Shown in pieces: positions 7,270-42,495 of a stretch of 64,000 nucleotides of DNA. The DNA is from Nitrospinota bacterium (GTDB lineage: Bacteria > Nitrospinota_A > UBA7883 > JACRLM01). The translations under genes were made by a program, and so were the position numbers. The notes under the pieces are model-generated. The model did no database searches, was not told the DNA's origin, and was given only the letters and a program-made list of their open reading frames with translations. The stretch lies in the NCBI GenBank assembly GCA_016208975.1, contig JACQXA010000004.1, positions 310,001 through 374,000 of the forward strand, read 5' to 3'. Position 1 is the first letter of the stretch; each line of letters starts with the position of its first letter.

Positions 7270-8583
7270 ATGGGAAATGAGTACCGCCAGGCCCCCTGGC
7301 TAATTACGGAAAAAGACCCGGCGAGGAAAGACCATTTCCTGGTCCACAATAACCTGACCGGCAGGACATTCCGCCTGCAAAAGAAGCTTGCGGGCCAACC
7401 CATAGGCAAAGGCGTGGACGGCCGGTGGCTCAATTTCCTTGTGGCCGAAAAGCTTGTGGTAAAGCAGGAAGACATAGAGCCCACCCTGGACGAATACCTG
7501 AGATACTGCATGTATGGGCACCCCACCAACGAGTCGCAGGTGGTTTTCCTGCCCACCTATTCATGCCAGTTCGCCTGCACATACTGTTATAACGACCAGG
7601 TGCGCGCCCAGAACATGGAGAAGAAAAGGCTTGCCCCGGAGAAAATAGCCAAAAAGATGGCCGACCACCTGGAGTCCTCGCCGGGACAAACCTGGAAATT
7701 GCTGGTGACCGGCGGAGGGGAGCCTTTCCTTGTGGCCGACTACCTTTACAAAATAGCCTCGCTGTTAAAAAGCGCCGCCAGAAAGAACGGGCGGGAATTC
7801 ACTTTCCAGATCATCACCAACGGGCAGGCCGCCACCAGGGATAAAGTTGAAAAGCTCATGAAGGCTGGGCTGGCGGGCCTCCAGATAACCATAGACCCGG
7901 AGCACGACAAAACCCGCCCCATGAAAGGCGGCAAACCGTCGTTGAGCCAGGTGCTGGCGAATATAAAAGCGCTACCGCCCCAAATAAGGCTGACGTTGAC
8001 CACCAACATCCACGCCGGTGAAGAGGAAGAATACCGGAAAATGTTGAAAATGCTACTTCCGTTGCGGGAGCGGTTCGCCAGTACTTCAGTGACTCCGATA
8101 ATGGACAGGGTTCCAACGTTGAGTCCAGAGGAAGAGGGAAAAATCAGCCGTCTGAACACGAAAAAGACCTTGGCCACTTTAGTGAAATGTTTCGACGCCA
8201 TTGATGAGCTCGGTTACATGCGGAAGCTTGCGTTCCCACGCATCGTTTGTGAGGCTTTCATCATGTGCGAAGAGCTTATGATGAACTTCGCCGGAGAAAC
8301 CACATTTTGCGCCGCGCTCGACAGCCTGCCTCAATACCGGTGTGACGCGAAATCAGAAGAGGCTAAAGATAAATTCGAGCTTAGGATAGCCAACCAGGGG
8401 TGGAAACAGCATTGTTTCAAGGAGGGCGAGCCTTGCGCCTTCGCGCCCTCCTGCTGGGGCGGTTGCAGGATGATAAGCGTAACCCAGGGGAAAAATTGGG
8501 ACACCATCAATTGCGAAAAACCGATGTTCGATGAGATGGCCCGGTATGAGCTGAGGCGTTGGGCCGAGGTTTGGTCCATGTAA
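7270..8583 (+). CDS. Radical SAM protein with SPASM-like C-terminal cysteines
   Basis: A 437-residue radical SAM enzyme. C99-x3-C103-x2-C106 (S-C-Q-F-A-C-T-Y-C) binds the SAM-cleaving [4Fe-4S] cluster and is followed by a G-G-G-E-P motif. The last 60 residues hold several cysteines (H-C-F-K, E-P-C-A-F, S-C-W-G-G-C, N-C-E-K), the layout of a SPASM or twitch auxiliary-cluster domain. The ATG follows GAGGGA with a 3-bp gap. SPASM enzymes commonly modify peptides, but some act on other substrates. Divergent placement beside an ACP/CrtI/ketosynthase locus is reminiscent of ladderane candidate clusters, which include radical SAM proteins. Its substrate cannot be assigned. Confidence 0.8.
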   Translation: MGNEYRQAPWLITEKDPARKDHFLVHNNLTGRTFRLQKKLAGQPIGKGVDGRWLNFLVAEKLVVKQEDIEPTLDEYLRYCMYGHPTNESQVVFLPTYSCQFACTYCYNDQVRAQNMEKKRLAPEKIAKKMADHLESSPGQTWKLLVTGGGEPFLVADYLYKIASLLKSAARKNGREFTFQIITNGQAATRDKVEKLMKAGLAGLQITIDPEHDKTRPMKGGKPSLSQVLANIKALPPQIRLTLTTNIHAGEEEEYRKMLKMLLPLRERFASTSVTPIMDRVPTLSPEEEGKISRLNTKKTLATLVKCFDAIDELGYMRKLAFPRIVCEAFIMCEELMMNFAGETTFCAALDSLPQYRCDAKSEEAKDKFELRIANQGWKQHCFKEGEPCAFAPSCWGGCRMISVTQGKNWDTINCEKPMFDEMARYELRRWAEVWSM

Positions 8584-36119: not shown

Positions 36120-37733
36120 ATGGAAAAATTAAATAGCTTGTTTAACGCCATTCGGGGCCGTGTCGCCCGGCCATTTGCCGTTTCCACCGGCGCCATAAAG
36201 GCAAAGCTTGTTGCCTTGCTTATGCTTCTACCCCTGGCAACGGCAGGATGTATAGGAGAAACAGTCATCAAGTCAGTGATGAAGAACGATGAGCCGGACA
36301 CTTTCAGGGTGGGGTGGAACGTTGTTGGCCTGGAATTGACAATGCCAAATTTACTTAACCTCATGACAATGGATCAAATATTAAGCTACATGGTTAATTC
36401 TACCATTAAAGATCCTAATTATAAGTTTGATACCATTGTTGAACAATACAAAATGCTTGGTAATGGCAAAAAAATTATTATAAAGCTTAAGGATGACGCG
36501 GCTTTTCATGACCTTACGCCAGTAACCGCCTACAATGTGGCGCGCTCATTTGAATATGAGTCACAAATACAACCGACAAAACCGGAGTTCACTCTTGTTT
36601 TTAAAGCATTAAGCGACAAAGTTATTAGCGTGGAGTCAACCGATCCAATAAATTTATCTAATTTAAGGTTTCATATATTGAACCTGGATGGCTCAAAGCA
36701 AGTTGACATCAACAAATTCGACATTGTCGGCACGGGGCCGTATGAATTTTTATCTTTTGATAAAACAAAAAAAATACTAAGAATGAAAAAATTCCACCGG
36801 CAAACCCTTACTGATAGCATTGATGAGAAATACCTTGAATATTACTTATTTGATGATTATGAAAGCTCCCTGAACGCCTACCTGGAGGGTGTTGTAGATT
36901 ATTTGCTTCTATCCACATTGGAAGACTTGCCTTTTTTGCGGCAGAATCAGAACAATATTTTTGTTGATACCATGACTAATTATCCCACGCTATTGATATT
37001 CAACTCGCGCCATCCATTGTTTAAAGACCAGCGCGTGAGGAAGGCATTTAGCCATTATATTGATAGAAAGGCCCTGGCCAACAGCAAATTCGCCCTTAAT
37101 GGAGACGCCGTGCCCACTTTGGCGCCATTGCACATGTCCAGCCCTAGAACCGAGCCATTTATTGAAGATTACGACCCTGCCAGGGCGGAGCTTTTGTTAA
37201 GCCAGGCTGGCTTCACAAAAACGCCGCGTGGCTTTTGGCTGAAAAATGGCAAAATTTTGACTTTGGAAATATCATTCCCGGAACAGGATTCTTCCGGATT
37301 AAAAGCCATGCGGTTCCTTGCCAAGCATTTTGAGGCAAATGGAGTTAAGTGCAAATTACGGATGATTACCACAGGAAAATATGTCGATATCATTACCAGC
37401 AATGGTGATGATTGGCAGATAATGTATAAAATAATTATCGACAGAAACAATATATATTCTACAAACGATATTTATTCACCTAACAACGGCGAGAGTATTA
37501 TAAAATGGTTAGACGCCAAATCGCAAAACAAATTTGGAAGTCTTTATGATAATTACTTGCTAAATAGGGATGACGCCGCATTGAAGAGCGGGTTGCAAAA
37601 GTTGATTCTGGAAGAAGCCCCTTGCGCCGCCATGTTCTATACAAAAGATTTTGGGATATTAAGAAGTGATTTCCGGTATTGGGGCGAAAAGATTTCCAGG
37701 GATATTTACGGTCTATATTATCTGGACAGGTAA
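36120..37733 (+). CDS. Family 5 extracellular solute-binding lipoprotein (peptide/nickel type)
   Basis: A 537-residue protein with a long N-terminal basic segment, a hydrophobic helix and the lipobox L-A-T-A-G-C (Cys near residue 41). The body is a DppA/OppA-like fold with D-A-A-F-H-D near residue 123, then A-Y-N-V-A-R-S-F and R-V-R-K-A-F-S-H-Y-I-D-R. No permease or ATPase genes accompany it, so it is an orphan binding protein, perhaps a signalling partner of the kinase upstream. From about 36300 the gene is clearly more AT-rich than its surroundings and uses many A/T-ending codons, a sign of acquisition from elsewhere. Confidence 0.83.
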   Translation: MEKLNSLFNAIRGRVARPFAVSTGAIKAKLVALLMLLPLATAGCIGETVIKSVMKNDEPDTFRVGWNVVGLELTMPNLLNLMTMDQILSYMVNSTIKDPNYKFDTIVEQYKMLGNGKKIIIKLKDDAAFHDLTPVTAYNVARSFEYESQIQPTKPEFTLVFKALSDKVISVESTDPINLSNLRFHILNLDGSKQVDINKFDIVGTGPYEFLSFDKTKKILRMKKFHRQTLTDSIDEKYLEYYLFDDYESSLNAYLEGVVDYLLLSTLEDLPFLRQNQNNIFVDTMTNYPTLLIFNSRHPLFKDQRVRKAFSHYIDRKALANSKFALNGDAVPTLAPLHMSSPRTEPFIEDYDPARAELLLSQAGFTKTPRGFWLKNGKILTLEISFPEQDSSGLKAMRFLAKHFEANGVKCKLRMITTGKYVDIITSNGDDWQIMYKIIIDRNNIYSTNDIYSPNNGESIIKWLDAKSQNKFGSLYDNYLLNRDDAALKSGLQKLILEEAPCAAMFYTKDFGILRSDFRYWGEKISRDIYGLYYLDR

Positions 37734-37738
37734 TCTTA

Positions 37739-38312
37739 ATTGCTTCGCCAGGAACATTATATGCTTCGCCAGGGTCGCCTTATATTGCTTCGCCGGGGTC
37801 GCCTGACCCCGGTCTTCTTCAAGGAACCCGTGGTCGCCTTATAAGCGCTTCACCGGGGTCGCCTGACCCCGGTCTTCTTCAGGAACCCGTGGTCGCCTTA
37901 TAAGCGCTTCGCCGGGGTCGCCTGACCCCGGTCTTCTCCGCTCCGCTCAGGAACCCGTGGCCTGGCGACCACGGGGAAGCGGTGGAATAGGTCGCCCCCA
38001 TATGCTTCGCCGGGGTTGCCCCTATGCTTCACCGAGGTCGCCTGACCTCGGTTCCTACATCATCCGCTTTTCGCTTCACCGGGGTCGCCTGACCCCGGTC
38101 TTCTCCGCTCCGCTCAGGAAAACCCGTGGTCGGGCGACCACGGGGAAGCGATCACAAAACACCAACGGGGAAGCGCTCTAATGGTAACCACGGGGAAGCA
38201 GTGGAAAGGGGCCGCCCACATATCCGCTTCGCCGGGATCGCCCCCTATGCTTCACCGGGGTCGCCTGACCCCGGTCTTTTATCGCTTCACCGGGGTCGCC
38301 TGACCCCGGTTC
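37739..38312. repeat. REP palindrome array, left of the RAYT gene
   Basis: Seven complete REP units of the form GCTTC-[A/G]CCGNGGTC-GCCT-GACCNCGGT (the first at 37787-37813), two reverse-oriented units ending GGGGAAGC (near 37957 and 38125), and several half-units that stop after GGTCGCCT or GGTTGCCCCT. Stems differ in compensated pairs (GGGG/CCCC, GAGG/CCTC, GTGG/CCAC). Spacers such as CTTCTTCAAGGAA and CTCCGCTCCGCTCAGGAA recur between units. The last unit abuts the stop codon of the RAYT gene. Confidence 0.9.
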
Positions 38313-38834
38313 CTAGTCCCATGGTGTCCAGGGGCTCACCACCTCCACCGGTAACGGGCCGCTCTGTCCTAAATAATCCCGGGCGCTTGACCAGGCAAAG
38401 TTCTCCGGCCTGTCGCAAAGCCGCCACTTCTTCGCAAGAGGGTTATTATGTATATATTCCAGCTTTTGTTTTAAAAACTCCCACGATATTAGTTTTTTGG
38501 GAGAGTGGGTTTTTTGCCATATCTGGATTTTCCTGTCCCGCTTCTCCACCGTGAACCGGCTTAATAAAGGGTCATTGTCACGATTTAGGGTTTCGATTAT
38601 TTTCTTGGCTGTGTATTTATGGAAATCTCTTAGAAAATCCGCCAATACGTTACCTTCATTTATAGTTATTATCATGTGGATGTGGTTTGGCATGATTACA
38701 TAGCCGTTTATTTTAATTTTGCCTTGTTGCGCCCTGGTAGATAGCGATTCAAGTATTATCCCGGCCATTTCCTTGCGGTGGAAAAGATGCGCCCATTGGT
38801 TGATAGTGGAGGTGATGAAATAAGCTTGGCGCAT
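38313..38834 (-). CDS. REP-associated tyrosine transposase (RAYT, Y1-Tnp/IS200-like)
   Basis: A 173-residue HUH nuclease domain from the ATG at 38834 (M-R-Q-A-Y-F-I-T). The HUH motif is H51-I-H53 in M-P-N-H-I-H-M-I, and the candidate catalytic tyrosine is Tyr74 in F-H-K-Y-T-A-K-K. The frame is open another 47 codons upstream through REP sequence, which is not likely to be coding. Both flanks carry REP palindromes with a fixed GCTTC tag, the substrate type of RAYTs, which cut and move REPs. The gene looks intact, so the array may still be mobile. Confidence 0.88.
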   Translation of the reverse strand: MRQAYFITSTINQWAHLFHRKEMAGIILESLSTRAQQGKIKINGYVIMPNHIHMIITINEGNVLADFLRDFHKYTAKKIIETLNRDNDPLLSRFTVEKRDRKIQIWQKTHSPKKLISWEFLKQKLEYIHNNPLAKKWRLCDRPENFAWSSARDYLGQSGPLPVEVVSPWTPWD

Positions 38835-38861
38835 GAATCTATGATACGACAAATCAGGAAC

Positions 38862-39092
38862 CCGGGGTCGCCTTATATGCTTCACCGAGGTCGCCTGACC
38901 TCGGTCTTCTCCACTCCGCTCAGGAACCCGTGGTCGGGCGACCACGGGGAAGCGGGGGGAAGGGGCCGCCCCCATATGCGCTTCTATGCTTCAACCGAAG
39001 TCGCCTTAAATGCGCTTCACCGAGGTCGCCTGACCTCGGTCTTCTCCACTCCGCTCAGGAATCCGTGGTCGGGCGACCACGGGGAAGCAATC
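38862..39092. repeat. REP palindrome array, right of the RAYT gene
   Basis: Two complete CCGAGG-type units (around 38879 and 39018), each followed by CTTCTCCACTCCGCTCAGGAA and a reverse-oriented CCGTGG-type unit ending GGGGAAGC. This makes two tandem BIME-like blocks. An additional degenerate half-unit with an extra A (CTTCAACCGAAGTCGCC) lies between them. Confidence 0.88.
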
Positions 39093-39100
39093 GTAAAACA

Positions 39101-39154
39101 ACCACGGGGTAGCGATCAAACAACAAGCCACCGGGACGCCAAAGCGCCCCGGCG
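39101..39154. repeat. 54-bp 3' module, copy 1 (after peptide gene A)
   Basis: Near-identical (53 of 54 bases by eye) to 39477-39530. It contains the hairpin CCGGGACGC-CAAA-GCGCCCCGG. It lies 13 bp downstream of the stop codon of the GCC-core peptide gene at 39168-39260. On the peptide strand the hairpin is followed by TGGCTTGTTGTTTGAT, so it could act as a weak terminator or RNA end. Confidence 0.8.
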
Positions 39155-39167
39155 TACGATGAACAAA

Positions 39168-39260
39168 CTAGGCAATTCTGGCTACAGTCCCACCACAGCA
39201 ACCAGCGGGCTCAACGAAACCTCTAAGTTCCTTTTTCTTCGCGGCTTTGGTCTTTTTCAT
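39168..39260 (-). CDS. GCC-core peptide A (30 residues)
   Basis: ATG at 39260, 7 bp after AGGAG, to TAG at 39168. A very basic N-terminus (M-K-K-T-K-A-A-K-K-K) is followed by E-L-R-G-F-V-E-P-A and the 11-residue C-terminal core G-C-C-G-G-T-V-A-R-I-A. The same L-R-G-F-V-E-P segment occurs in peptide B and the same core pattern in peptides B and C, with synonymous codon differences at the Gly and Cys codons. This is selection at the protein level. It could be a ribosomally made, modified peptide precursor (leader plus core) or a metal/thiol-binding peptide. I do not recognise a family. Confidence 0.7.
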   Translation of the reverse strand: MKKTKAAKKKELRGFVEPAGCCGGTVARIA

Positions 39261-39307
39261 AATGTCTCTCCTGTATGATTGAACATTAGTCTTGGGGTTG
39301 TCCCCAT

Positions 39308-39470
39308 ATGCTTCACCGAGGTCGCCTGACCTCGGGCCTTCTTCATATGCTTCACCGGGGTGGCCCCATATTGCTTCACCGGGGTCGCCTGACCCCGGTC
39401 TTCTTCAAGGAACCCGTGGTCGGGCGACCACGGGGAAGCAATCGTAAAACACCAACGGGGAAGCGCTCTA
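39308..39470. repeat. REP palindromes between peptide genes A and C
   Basis: Two complete GCTTCACC-type units (at about 39310 and 39366), a truncated unit between them (CTTCACCGGGGTGGCCCC), and one reverse-oriented CCGTGG unit ending GGGGAAGC near 39440. The following stretch (AATCGTAAAACACCAACGGG onward) repeats sequence seen at 38150-38200. Confidence 0.85.
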
Positions 39471-39476
39471 ATGGTA

Positions 39477-39530
39477 ACCACGGGGTAGCTATCAAACAAC
39501 AAGCCACCGGGACGCCAAAGCGCCCCGGCG
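39477..39530. repeat. 54-bp 3' module, copy 2 (after peptide gene C)
   Basis: Second copy of the module at 39101-39154, differing at one visible base. It lies 10 bp downstream of the stop codon of the 53-residue GCC-core peptide gene. Its hairpin is CCGGGACGC-CAAA-GCGCCCCGG. Confidence 0.8.
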
Positions 39531-39540
39531 CTTGCAACAA

Positions 39541-39702
39541 CTAGACTACTTTCGTAACTGCGCCAGAACAACAGCCTATGGCTGAGGCCTTTGATGTGGC
39601 CCTTATTGTCTTTTTAGCGGCGGTTTTCTTTGCTGGTTTCTTGGACGCGGATTTCTTTGCGGTGGCGGATTTTTTGGACGCGGATTTCTTTTTTGTAGCC
39701 AT
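39541..39702 (-). CDS. GCC-core peptide C (53 residues)
   Basis: ATG at 39702, 6 bp after AAGGGG, to TAG at 39541. The first 31 residues are a Lys/Ala/Ser-rich, histone H1-like run made of repeats of K-K-S-A-S-K-K. Then comes a short linker (T-I-R-A-T-S-K-A-S-A-I) and the core G-C-C-S-G-A-V-T-K-V-V. The core aligns without gaps to those of peptides A and B, while the leader is unrelated in length. The opposite strand is also open here, but only because of the Lys-rich repeats. No modifying enzyme is adjacent. Confidence 0.7.
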   Translation of the reverse strand: MATKKKSASKKSATAKKSASKKPAKKTAAKKTIRATSKASAIGCCSGAVTKVV

Positions 39703-39835
39703 GAGAAGCCCCTTAAAGTTGGTATTAATAGACCAGAAGAACAGCCCACTCTTTTATATTCACTGAGGGGTTTCGCAACCCCGCAGTATTTGCCCTAACA
39801 CCAGGGTTATTAAAACCCAAGTGATTGATGGTAAT

Positions 39836-39940
39836 TTAGACCAGCTTCAAGGACGCACCACTACAGCACCCCAACGGCTCAACAAAACCCCTGAGCTGTT
39901 TCTTGTTGTTTATGCGGGCGCTGATTTTCTTGGTCTTCAT
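39836..39940 (-). CDS. GCC-core peptide B (34 residues)
   Basis: ATG at 39940, 12 bp after AAGGA, to TAA at 39836. A basic leader (M-K-T-K-K-I-S-A-R-I-N-N-K-K) is followed by Q-L-R-G-F-V-E-P-L and the core G-C-C-S-G-A-S-L-K-L-V. It is the most upstream of the three peptide genes, 133 bp before peptide C. It lacks the 54-bp 3' module. A hairpin (ACTG-GGGGTT / AACCCC-CAGT, 39762-39787) lies downstream. The spacing of its ribosome-binding site is long, so expression may be weaker. Confidence 0.68.
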   Translation of the reverse strand: MKTKKISARINNKKQLRGFVEPLGCCSGASLKLV

Positions 39941-40018
39941 GATTACATAGTTCCTTACAAAGTACGTTTACACTAATCACCGTGTTGGCCCTTGCCAGCC
40001 GGCGATATAAAAAACATT

Positions 40019-40380
40019 CACCAGTCCGTGGTCAGCGACCACGGGGAAGCAATCATAAAACGACCACGGGGAAGTGTTCAAAATGCGACCCGGTGGAAGC
40101 ATTTTAGATGCTTCGACAAGCTCAGCATGACACGTTATTGCCGCACCGCACTTTTCAGGCGGAGTCTGCCGAAGCCCTACCAAGAGCGCCGCAACCCACA
40201 TGGTTCGACAGGCTCAGCATGACACGTTAATGTCAGCCCGATCGCGCCGAGGGGCGCTTCGCCGAGATTCCCTGACCCCGCCCGGTCTTTTATCGCTTCG
40301 CCGTGGTCGCCCTTTTTGCTTCGCCGTGGTCGCCCTTTTTGCTTCGCCGTGGTCGCCTGACCTCGGTATATCCATCATTC
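40019..40380. repeat. Mixed repeats: REP units and a 26-bp direct repeat
   Basis: It contains a reverse REP (CCGTGGTCAGCGACCACGG-GGAAGC, near 40025) and a 26-bp motif, TTCGACA[A/G]GCTCAGCATGAC followed by ACGTTA, at 40112-40137 and 40204-40229. It ends with three consecutive half-REPs (GCTTCGCCGTGGTCGCC) at about 40299-40362. No gene is visible. Confidence 0.75.
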
Positions 40381-41166
40381 GCGGGCAACCTCAGGGGGTT
40401 GCCCCTACAATACGCACAGGGCTACCCGTGCAACTTTTCAACGGGGGATTTACCGCTTTGTTTTGCCCGGTTGCCTAATGGCGTTTTAAAACCCGCGCCG
40501 GGATTTAACAACACCAGCGCCAATTTAAAAACACCCGCGTAAGCTTAGGGCTTTCGCCCTTACGCCCGCCGCGCCGAAACAAAACAAAACAAACGCGATT
40601 GGATTAGGACGCAGTTAAACGGCTATGCTCCCCCAAAAACCGGCACCAGCGTGTTGCGCTGGTAACCAGCCTCTACGCCATTTATTACTTGACATTAATT
40701 TTTATCATTTTACCGGCAAGTAAATCAACAAATTTTTTATAGAAATTTTACATTATTTATACCAGTTACAATAATATATATGGCCATACCATTAATATTG
40801 TCAAAATATCCCTACAAATGGTATTCCCCAATAAAAGTGGTGGATTATATCCATCTAAACCTTGGCTAAACCAACGCCATGTTTTGTGAAACGAATATAG
40901 GCAAACGCCATAATGATGTAATGCAACATGGCAGTTATTTCCAGGAGCGGTGGTCGGGCGACCACGGGGAAGCAATCAAAAAAAACACCACGGGGAAGCA
41001 AATTTCAACTTTATCCTCCACGCCCGGCCCAGCGGGTTACCCCCTCCCGCCTCCGGCGGACTCCCCCTTGGCAAGGGGGAGAAAGTAATAGCGAGCCATC
41101 ACCCGCCACCAACACCCGCCATCAACACCGCGCCGCCATCGGGCCGTTTTGATGTAAAATGTTTTC
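40381..41166. other. Non-coding stretch before nfeD
   Basis: No convincing gene. A GC-neutral part (40381-40680) contains short inverted repeats, for example ACCAGCG/CGCTGGT near 40645. An AT-rich part (40680-40900) holds no ORF with a ribosome-binding site. A reverse REP follows at about 40949-40973. A GC-rich intergenic repeat-like segment (CTCCGGCGGACTCCCCCTTG) is near 41050. TAAAAT near 41155, just before the nfeD ATG, is a possible -10. Confidence 0.6.
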
Positions 41167-42495
41167 ATGATACGCAAAGCCTTTATTAAAACGTTGTCGG
41201 CAACCCTGTTAATGGCCGCAGTGGCGCTTTTCGCCTCCGCGCAGACCGGCGCCAAACACGCGCTGGTGATCACCGTGAACGGCGCCATAAACCCCGTGGC
41301 CGCCGAGTATATCGTTAAATCCATCGCCACCGCCGAAGCCGACCCCACAGTGGAAACGCTGGTTATCCAGCTGGACACCCCCGGCGGGCTGGACACATCC
41401 ATGCGCCAGATAGTAAAAGAACTGCAACGCACGCCCATGCCCGTTATCGTGTATGTGGCGCCCAGCGGCTCCCGCGCGGCTTCGGCGGGGGCGTTCATCA
41501 CCATGGCGGCCCATGTGGCGGCAATGGCCCCGGGCACCAATATCGGCGCGGCCTCGCCGGTGAACATGGGGGGAGAGGGGATGGACGTTACCATGAAGAA
41601 AAAAGTTACCAACGACGCGGCGGCGTACATCCGCTCATTAGCGGAAGCCCACGGCAGGAACGCCGACGCCGGGGAAGAGATGGTCCGCAGGGGCGCCTCC
41701 ATGCAGGAGACAATGGCATTGGCGGAAAACGTGGTGGACCTGGTGGCGGCGGACCTGCCAGCATTGCTGGCCATGGTGGACGGGCGGGTGGTGAAAACCG
41801 CCGCCGGGGAGCGGAAGCTTGCCACCAAAGGGCTTGCGGTAAAACGGCTGGACATGAACTGGCGCGAGAAGATATTCGACGCCCTGGCGGACCCGAACAT
41901 CGCCTACATGCTAATGATGCTGGGGTTTTACGGGCTGTTTTTCGAGCTATCCAACCCCGGCACGGTGCTTCCGGGCCTTTTGGGGGCCATATGCCTGATA
42001 CTGGCGTTTTACTCGTTGCAAACCCTGCCCATCAGTTACGCCGGGGCCTTGCTTATACTGCTGGCGCTCATCATGTTCATGCTGGAGATATGGATACCCA
42101 GTTACGGGATGCTAACGCTGGGGGGGTTGATATCGCTGATTCTTGGGTCGCTTATGCTGGTGGACTCGCCGGAAGAATATATGCGGATCAGCCTTTCGAT
42201 GGTATTGCCTGTGTCTGTGGGCACGGCGGCGTTTTTCTTTTTTCTGGTTGGTTCGGGCATCCGGGCGCAGTACCGTAAATCCATCACCGGCATGGAGGGG
42301 CTTATAGGGGAAGAGGGAATCGCCGAGACCGACATTTCCATGGACTCGCCCGGCACGGTTACGGCGCAGGGGGACATATGGAGCGCCGTTCCGCAAGACG
42401 GCCCCATCACCAAGGGAGAGCGGGTGGTGGTGGTTGGCCAGAAGGGGCTAACGCTTACGGTGAAGGCCGAAACCGTCAACCCACGTGGCGTTTGA
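41167..42495 (+). CDS. NfeD family membrane-bound serine protease (ClpP-like)
   Basis: A 442-residue NfeD1-type protein. A signal peptide (1-25) is followed by a ClpP-class protease domain with the catalytic Ser in A-S-A-G-A-F-I (near residue 104) and a lysine in M-K-K-K-V-T-N-D. Four or five membrane helices (about 245-365) and a C-terminal OB-fold NfeD domain complete it. Homologs cleave the hydrophobic C-terminus of partner stomatin/SPFH proteins. No stomatin gene is adjacent. The 3' end overlaps the convergent kinase gene by 20 bp. Confidence 0.87.
   Translation: MIRKAFIKTLSATLLMAAVALFASAQTGAKHALVITVNGAINPVAAEYIVKSIATAEADPTVETLVIQLDTPGGLDTSMRQIVKELQRTPMPVIVYVAPSGSRAASAGAFITMAAHVAAMAPGTNIGAASPVNMGGEGMDVTMKKKVTNDAAAYIRSLAEAHGRNADAGEEMVRRGASMQETMALAENVVDLVAADLPALLAMVDGRVVKTAAGERKLATKGLAVKRLDMNWREKIFDALADPNIAYMLMMLGFYGLFFELSNPGTVLPGLLGAICLILAFYSLQTLPISYAGALLILLALIMFMLEIWIPSYGMLTLGGLISLILGSLMLVDSPEEYMRISLSMVLPVSVGTAAFFFFLVGSGIRAQYRKSITGMEGLIGEEGIAETDISMDSPGTVTAQGDIWSAVPQDGPITKGERVVVVGQKGLTLTVKAETVNPRGV

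Follow-up and report, generated by a model that had tools for sequence, protein, structure and literature searches.

The subject of this analysis is a stretch of 64,000 nucleotides from a Nitrospinota bacterium (positions 310,001 to 374,000 of contig JACQXA010000004.1, assembly GCA_016208975.1), in the following called the window. Between a gene for an oligopeptide-binding protein, which ends at 37733, and an NfeD-type gene, which starts at 41167, lies a 3.4-kb stretch (37,734-41,166) that holds one gene for a REP-associated tyrosine transposase (RAYT, also called TnpA_REP), 19 full hairpins of the repetitive extragenic palindrome (REP) type and 14 half units, which consist of the tag and the 5' arm of such a hairpin (Table 1). 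The RAYT gene is the sole large credible open reading frame (ORF) of this stretch. An earlier note on this DNA had described the region 37,739-41,005 as a REPtron with an intact RAYT, which is borne out by a family model, by the closest solved fold and by a 61%-identical RAYT beside the same REP in another family. The genome to which the window belongs (G000) comprises 2.97 Mb in 4 contigs and was compared within a set of 24 genomes of the phylum Nitrospinota, in which its own family is represented by 2 genomes and in which G018 and G022 are its order-mates.

The reading frame of the RAYT is open and complete and contains the HUH motif NHIH and the tyrosine motif YIHNNP (Y---NP), both conserved in relatives; in an alignment of 42 sequences the two HUH histidines and the tyrosine are invariant. 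The protein scores 88.1 bits with the NCBIfam model NF047646 (REP-associated tyrosine transposase; cut-off 80) and 28 bits with PF01797 (cut-off 23), and with 20 bits it stays far below the cut-off of 55 of the IS200 model NF033573. Its AlphaFold model (pLDDT 93.9) has its best match among solved structures in 4er8, the E. coli RAYT with a REP hairpin (E 4.7e-8). Judged by its motifs, the enzyme is consistent with TnpA_REP subclass 2.6 (Bertels group 5), for which Table 1 of PMC6006769 lists NH[LIV]H, WQ, YIH[QN]NP, a length of about 179 aa and a median HuH-to-Y distance of 82 aa: NHIH, WQ, YIHNNP and a length of 173-180 aa agree with this set, and the HuH-to-Y distance is 77 aa in the window RAYT and its three nearest open relatives and 78-86 aa in the others (45 loci in which both motifs were found). 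In the E. coli RAYT the GTAG guide is contacted by E100, H101 and R104, as described in PMC6006769. In a weak phmmer alignment these residues fall on P, K and I of the window RAYT, and W and Q are kept; a GCTTC tag instead of GTAG is in keeping with this changed guide-contact region.

Table 1. The RAYT gene, full REP hairpins and half units of the window (stem: form of the variable base pair)
Feature	Position	Strand	Details
RAYT / TnpA_REP gene	38313..38834	(-)	173 aa + stop; start inferred from Met conserved in relatives; motifs NHIH, WQ, YIHNNP
Full REP	37787..37812	(+)	stem G/C, loop GCCT
Full REP	37847..37872	(+)	stem G/C, loop GCCT
Full REP	37906..37931	(+)	stem G/C, loop GCCT; pairs with 37955-37980
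Full REP	37955..37980	(-)	stem T/A, loop GCCA; one stem mismatch
Full REP	38026..38051	(+)	stem A/T, loop GCCT
Full REP	38073..38098	(+)	stem G/C, loop GCCT; pairs with 38124-38149
Full REP	38124..38149	(-)	stem T/A, loop GCCC
Full REP	38249..38274	(+)	stem G/C, loop GCCT
Full REP	38284..38309	(+)	stem G/C, loop GCCT; immediately beyond RAYT stop codon
Full REP	38879..38904	(+)	stem A/T, loop GCCT; upstream of RAYT; pairs with 38928-38953
Full REP	38928..38953	(-)	stem T/A, loop GCCC
Full REP	39014..39039	(+)	stem A/T, loop GCCT; pairs with 39063-39088
Full REP	39063..39088	(-)	stem T/A, loop GCCC
Full REP	39310..39335	(+)	stem A/T, loop GCCT
Full REP	39373..39398	(+)	stem G/C, loop GCCT; pairs with 39414-39439
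Full REP	39414..39439	(-)	stem T/A, loop GCCC
Full REP	40026..40050	(-)	stem T/A, loop GCT
Full REP	40341..40366	(+)	T-T mismatch at variable pair, loop GCCT
Full REP	40948..40973	(-)	stem T/A, loop GCCC; one stem mismatch
Half unit	37763..37779	(+)	24 nt before full REP 37787
Half unit	38004..38020	(+)	22 nt before 38026
Half unit	38226..38242	(+)	23 nt before 38249
Half unit	39349..39365	(+)	24 nt before 39373
Half unit, degenerate	40256..40272	(+)	outside scored chains
Half unit	40295..40311	(+)	first of two, period 23, before 40341
Half unit	40318..40334	(+)	second of two before 40341
Half unit	38158..38174	(-)	25 nt 5' of REP at 38149
Half unit	38183..38199	(-)	50 nt 5' of REP at 38149
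Half unit	39097..39113	(-)	25 nt 5' of REP at 39088
Half unit	39448..39464	(-)	25 nt 5' of REP at 39439
Half unit	39473..39489	(-)	50 nt 5' of REP at 39439
Half unit	40059..40075	(-)	25 nt 5' of REP at 40050
Half unit	40983..40999	(-)	26 nt 5' of REP at 40973

The REPs have the consensus GCTTC-N-CCGNGGTC-loop-GACCNCGG, and 16 of the 19 full hairpins in the window have a perfect 8-bp stem; those at 37955, 40341 and 40948 have one mismatch each. They stand on both sides of the RAYT gene and in both orientations, as the earlier note had said, and its figure of about 18 palindromes was near to the 19 full hairpins, to which the half units have to be added. The GCTTC tag, held to be constant, is indeed found in 19/19 full units of the window and in 139/155 across the loci of G000 taken in. 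A constant GCCT loop, however, which had also been claimed, is found on the plus strand (12/12), whereas the seven minus-strand units have GCCC (5), GCCA (1) or GCT (1). The stem forms are distributed by strand, too, with G/C (7) and A/T (4) on the plus strand only and T/A on 7/7 minus-strand units and on the mismatched plus-strand unit 40341. It should be noted that the detailed REP counts here and below (157, 155 or 153 full units, 113 half matches, 44 inverted and 26 same-strand neighbours) refer to the window plus 35 stretches of G000 rather than to the whole genome, and that 2 palindromes of G000 with a tag at both ends (self-overlapping) were excluded from the neighbour counts. A TTTAA-like box before the tag, considered as cleavage site, is present in only 25/153 units and is not claimed, and an Rfam scan gave a single sub-threshold chance match.

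Seven of the eight stem pairs are nearly constant. The pair at stem position 4 (n = 155) is T-A in 88 units, G-C in 43, A-T in 14 and unmatched in 10 (including one T-G); it is thus complementary in 145/155, where shuffling gives a mean of 70.1 and a maximum of 91. The compensatory changes reported by the earlier note are therefore real, but the forms are split by orientation and do not drift freely. Inverted neighbours less than 100 nt apart never carry the same variable pair (0/44; shuffle mean 20.0, minimum 9 in 20,000), whereas same-strand neighbours mostly do (21/26). The 44 inverted pairs are spread over 25 distinct 3-kb bins, and in 2 of these pairs an A unit stands opposite a G unit, so that both partners are of the G/A class. 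In the loci covered 33 such pairs have their tags outside and 11 have them inside, and the ends are mostly G/C or A/T with loop GCCT at one and T/A with GCCC or GCT at the other. Because the variable pair follows orientation, it is to be read as a label of orientation, and the inverted pairs as heterodimers like those of bacterial interspersed mosaic elements (BIMEs) or REPINs, as known from Enterobacteria, not as the outcome of random compensatory drift. With two orientation-linked classes a handful of changes may lie behind the majority of copies, so that the covariation speaks only in part for selection on the folded single strand. The outer pair (N after the tag and the base after the 3' arm) was rejected as a second covarying pair (34/155 versus a shuffled mean of 31.5).

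A half unit has the form GCTTC-N-CCGNGGYC-GCC plus about 8 nt, lacks the 3' arm and recurs with a period of mostly 25. The 113 matches include 60 half units in 42 chains of 1-3 units; the rest are mostly lone, many of them apparently within genes, and were left out of the half-unit counts. Without exception (42/42) the chains end in a full hairpin of the same orientation and lie on its tag side; a half unit directly adjoins a full one at the 5' side in 42/157 cases and at the 3' side in 5/157. Neighbouring units of a chain have the same variable base in 54/60 cases (shuffle mean 35). Linker similarity is higher inside a chain (0.62) than across chains (0.41), which indicates that local duplication contributes, although certain linkers turn up again at loci far away. 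Full units retain the inner stem bases TC in 145/153 cases and half units in 24/60 (Fisher p 2.6e-17), with the caveat that CC is found in 21 of the 36 half units that have changed and that these 21 may represent a single lineage. Loss of the inner stem bases in units that have no partner arm supports a pairing constraint and is the best internal evidence for it. In G018, in which 14 of 18 places with strict hairpins were taken in, there is no half unit at 19-31 nt from any of the 16 full hairpins looked at; half arrays are therefore, as far as seen, a trait of G000.

Strict hairpins (loop GCCN) number 91 in the whole G000 genome, and the pattern read backwards gives 0, so that the REPs are far more frequent than chance would allow; for tag plus arm with at most 1 mismatch there are 210 matches versus 1 in the control. 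The REPs are scattered across the genome and reach an unusually high density within part of contig 3: the first 74 kb or so of this contig (L044-L047), which starts within a REP hairpin, hold 29/91 strict hairpins, many with half arrays. Several REPs (e.g., C1:109800, C3:221, C4:1114903) are immediately preceded by a second kind of palindromic repeat (GCCGGATCAAGTCCGGCATGACAAY...), which is likewise dispersed; it looks as though one of the two repeats served the other as a preferred site of insertion.

Within the phylum, strict hairpins were found in 4/24 genomes (G000 91, G018 18, G001 3, G021 2) and in none of the other 20. RAYTs of the close type are present in G000 (1), in G018 (2, both open) and in G022 (1, no longer intact, with a stop and a frame shift), and weaker matches (28-30% identical) in G001, G002 and G004. 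Both genomes with at least 10 REP copies have a close-type RAYT. In G018, which belongs to another Nitrospinota family, a 61% identical RAYT adjoins a GCTTC REP as in G000, and a second one (57-58% identical) adjoins a different hairpin with the apex GGTC-TTCA-GACC, which occurs at 3 places and in G018 only. Two RAYTs beside two REP types are as predicted for cognate RAYT-REP pairs. The distant RAYT of G001 (29% identical, one internal TAG; L033) has on both flanks a palindrome GCGGGCA-loop-TGCCCGC, probably a separate REP family.

Beyond the phylum, a search of genome-contig and viral-contig collections with the single RAYT protein gave no match; an alignment-based search led to 73 loci around related RAYTs. 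Among the 34 subclass-2.6-like loci, the hairpins at the RAYTs of Chloroflexi and Trueperaceae have the apex GGTC-TCCY-GACC, like that of the window, with freely varying lower stems and mostly a YGAT foot, and those of Gracilibacteria and G022 have GGTG-TTCTT-CACC in common, with a GCT foot. At L125, L126, L131, L140, L108 and L110, all in other phyla, the apex is kept and the lower stem changes with the arms still matched. This suggests for the subclass-2.6-like group a recognition of the apex, the lower stem being variable. In the 73 loci pooled, stems are identical in 1/8 inverted versus 6/10 tandem neighbours, which is only suggestive as these hairpins are not confirmed as cognate REPs.

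The locus is very probably a REPtron, i.e., one domesticated single-strand transposase amid cognate REPs that are driven by it. For this reading the integrity of the gene, its predicted fold and family, the REP copy number, the covariation, the orientation rule, the half arrays and the RAYT-REP pairing in two Nitrospinota families can be taken from the sequences themselves; RAYT binding, RAYT cutting and REP mobility are inferred. Once a strand becomes exposed, for instance during replication, the tag and the 8-bp stem-loop would fold, a RAYT dimer would bind the hairpin, cut near its foot via the catalytic tyrosine and could rejoin the ends, and REPs or inverted REP pairs would thereby be copied or moved non-autonomously.

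The energies offer a possible reason why the partners of an inverted pair should differ. If two inverted REPs were identical, they could pair with each other into a single 20-bp hairpin whose loop is the spacer. By direct evaluation with DNA parameters, the two separate hairpins of 28 real heterodimers together average -16.8 kcal/mol and the joint 20-bp hairpin -12.4 kcal/mol; when the variable pair of the partner is made identical in silico, the values are -17.1 and -19.5 kcal/mol, respectively. The one-pair difference thus makes the joint hairpin about 7 kcal/mol costlier and barely affects the single ones. We propose tentatively, as something possible but not probable, that the function of heterotypy is to keep each hairpin self-paired and to spoil the joint one. 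Slightly more doubtful still is the wider proposal that the stem pair is an end code against cross-pairing of partners, which would keep them separate RAYT substrates and let them escape the removal of long hairpins, and that the half arrays arise, as by-products or as spare 5' arms, when a GCT(TC)-guided subclass 2.6 RAYT cuts. That heterodimers may escape SbcCD has been suggested in PMC3733652, where it is also stated that the heterodimer preference of many REP families 'has no obvious explanation'.

Several observations weigh against parts of this picture. The joint form is the more stable one in 7/28 real heterodimers (15/28 of those made identical in silico). In G018 the inverted neighbours less than 100 nt apart comprise two pairs of G with T and one T/T pair 81 nt apart (L099; gaps by hand), and among its TTCA REPs there is an inverted pair with identical partners at a distance of 20 nt, so that the orientation rule is strong in G000 and not universal. 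G001 and G021, metagenome-assembled genomes that are 86% and 81% complete, carry 2-3 REPs with no close-type RAYT found, and the RAYT of G022 is broken. The earlier note would have given up its reading if the transposase were inactive in all relatives and REPs were not associated with RAYTs; the two open RAYTs and 18 REPs of G018 run counter to this. Finally, the 44 inverted pairs are not independent of each other, and their heterotypy may be inherited from one founder dimer.

This last point leads to an explanation to which we give even chances, namely that the orientation-linked pair reflects ancestry only, one founder heterodimer having been amplified and the pair differences being functionless. 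E. coli BIMEs are likewise mosaics of different REP subtypes, as described in PMC6006769. There are just three pair types, and flanks and spacers are common to many copies. However, the pair forms are found on more than one loop background, the two pairs of G018 that stand closest together likewise combine G with T, in another family and around a different spacer, and a descent of this kind would have to account for the complete lack of same-pair inverted neighbours across 25 bins.

Template-switch (quasipalindrome) correction of imperfect palindromes during replication is established in bacteria and keeps arms matched without selection. It would explain the matched arms without RAYT selection and predicts few intermediates, as seen in the 10/155 units unmatched at the variable pair. 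It leaves, however, the orientation rule and the conserved tag unexplained, and since inverted neighbours differ at the variable pair, no correction can be running from one partner to the other; we consider this explanation of the matched arms unlikely.

Roles as transcription terminators or mRNA-stabilising hairpins have been hypothesised for REPs (PMC3733652). If these were the main roles of the palindromes and the RAYT only lay among them, the intergenic position of the REPs in the window would agree, but this reading is quite improbable in view of the conserved unpaired tag, the half units, the inverted pairing and the fact that each RAYT in G018 has its own REP type. A common insertion sequence of the IS200/IS605 type, its other copies decayed, would have the HUH/Y1 fold in common with the RAYT and is nevertheless hardly credible, the genome having a single Y1_Tnp match, the window RAYT itself, instead of multiple near-identical transposase copies, the IS200 score falling far short of its cut-off, and the motif YIHNNP being unlike the Y---Q of IS200.

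Between the REPs there are also three tiny ORFs, all on the minus strand (39168-39260, 39541-39702 and 39836-39940; 30, 53 and 34 aa), which have a common terminal motif GCC[SG]G and resemble precursors of ribosomally synthesised and post-translationally modified peptides. A fourth match lies at G000:C4:570520-570600; there was no convincing match in the other 23 genomes and no match in Pfam or NCBIfam. Elsewhere in the window (7270-8583, plus strand) a radical SAM protein is encoded, the nearest model of which is the geopeptide maturase TIGR04280 (135.6 bits, where 400 are required); its gene adjoins a TonB-receptor-like gene.

The locus is a genuine REPtron of a kind already known and is a variant by its tag, its one-pair orientation rule and its half-REP arrays. 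With TnpA_REP subclass 2.6 as described in PMC6006769 it shares NHIH, WQ, YIHNNP, a length of about 180 aa and non-GTAG hairpins that surround the gene and recur at other places of the genome; the host published there is Bacteroidetes rather than Nitrospinota, the tag here is GCTTC, and the REP structures of the subclass are called weaker, whereas here the 8-bp stem is strong and GC-rich. E. coli BIMEs and their REPtron (Y and Z REPs, 4er8) resemble it in the two-subtype inverted pairs, the single RAYT gene and the closest solved structure, but have GTAG, a stem bulge and other residues at the guide contacts. The REPINs of Pseudomonas, as presented in PMC3116915, are likewise inverted REP doublets, the likely mobile unit, with clusters adjoining RAYT genes; in G000, however, the two partners of an inverted doublet are without exception unlike at one stem pair, and there are half-REP arrays on the tag side. 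The GTAG and CGTC families treated in PMC3733652 are also short tagged palindromes with alternative complementary stem residues and heterodimers. Neither tag is found here (the 5' GT[AG]G tag of the GTAG super-family is replaced by GCTTC), and a RAYT is linked, which is not so for the CGTC repeats. No description of half-REP arrays or of a GCTTC tag was found in the literature, supplementary tables and subscription papers not being covered.

Combining a strong hairpin with a tag other than GTAG, this REPtron is useful for finding out how RAYTs read their guide sequence. The most consistent difference between its inverted partners is confined to one base pair of the stem, the rule has next to no exceptions in G000, and the half units provide a neighbouring unpaired control. 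With this one-pair difference and this control the question of why REP hairpins form mismatched pairs becomes testable.

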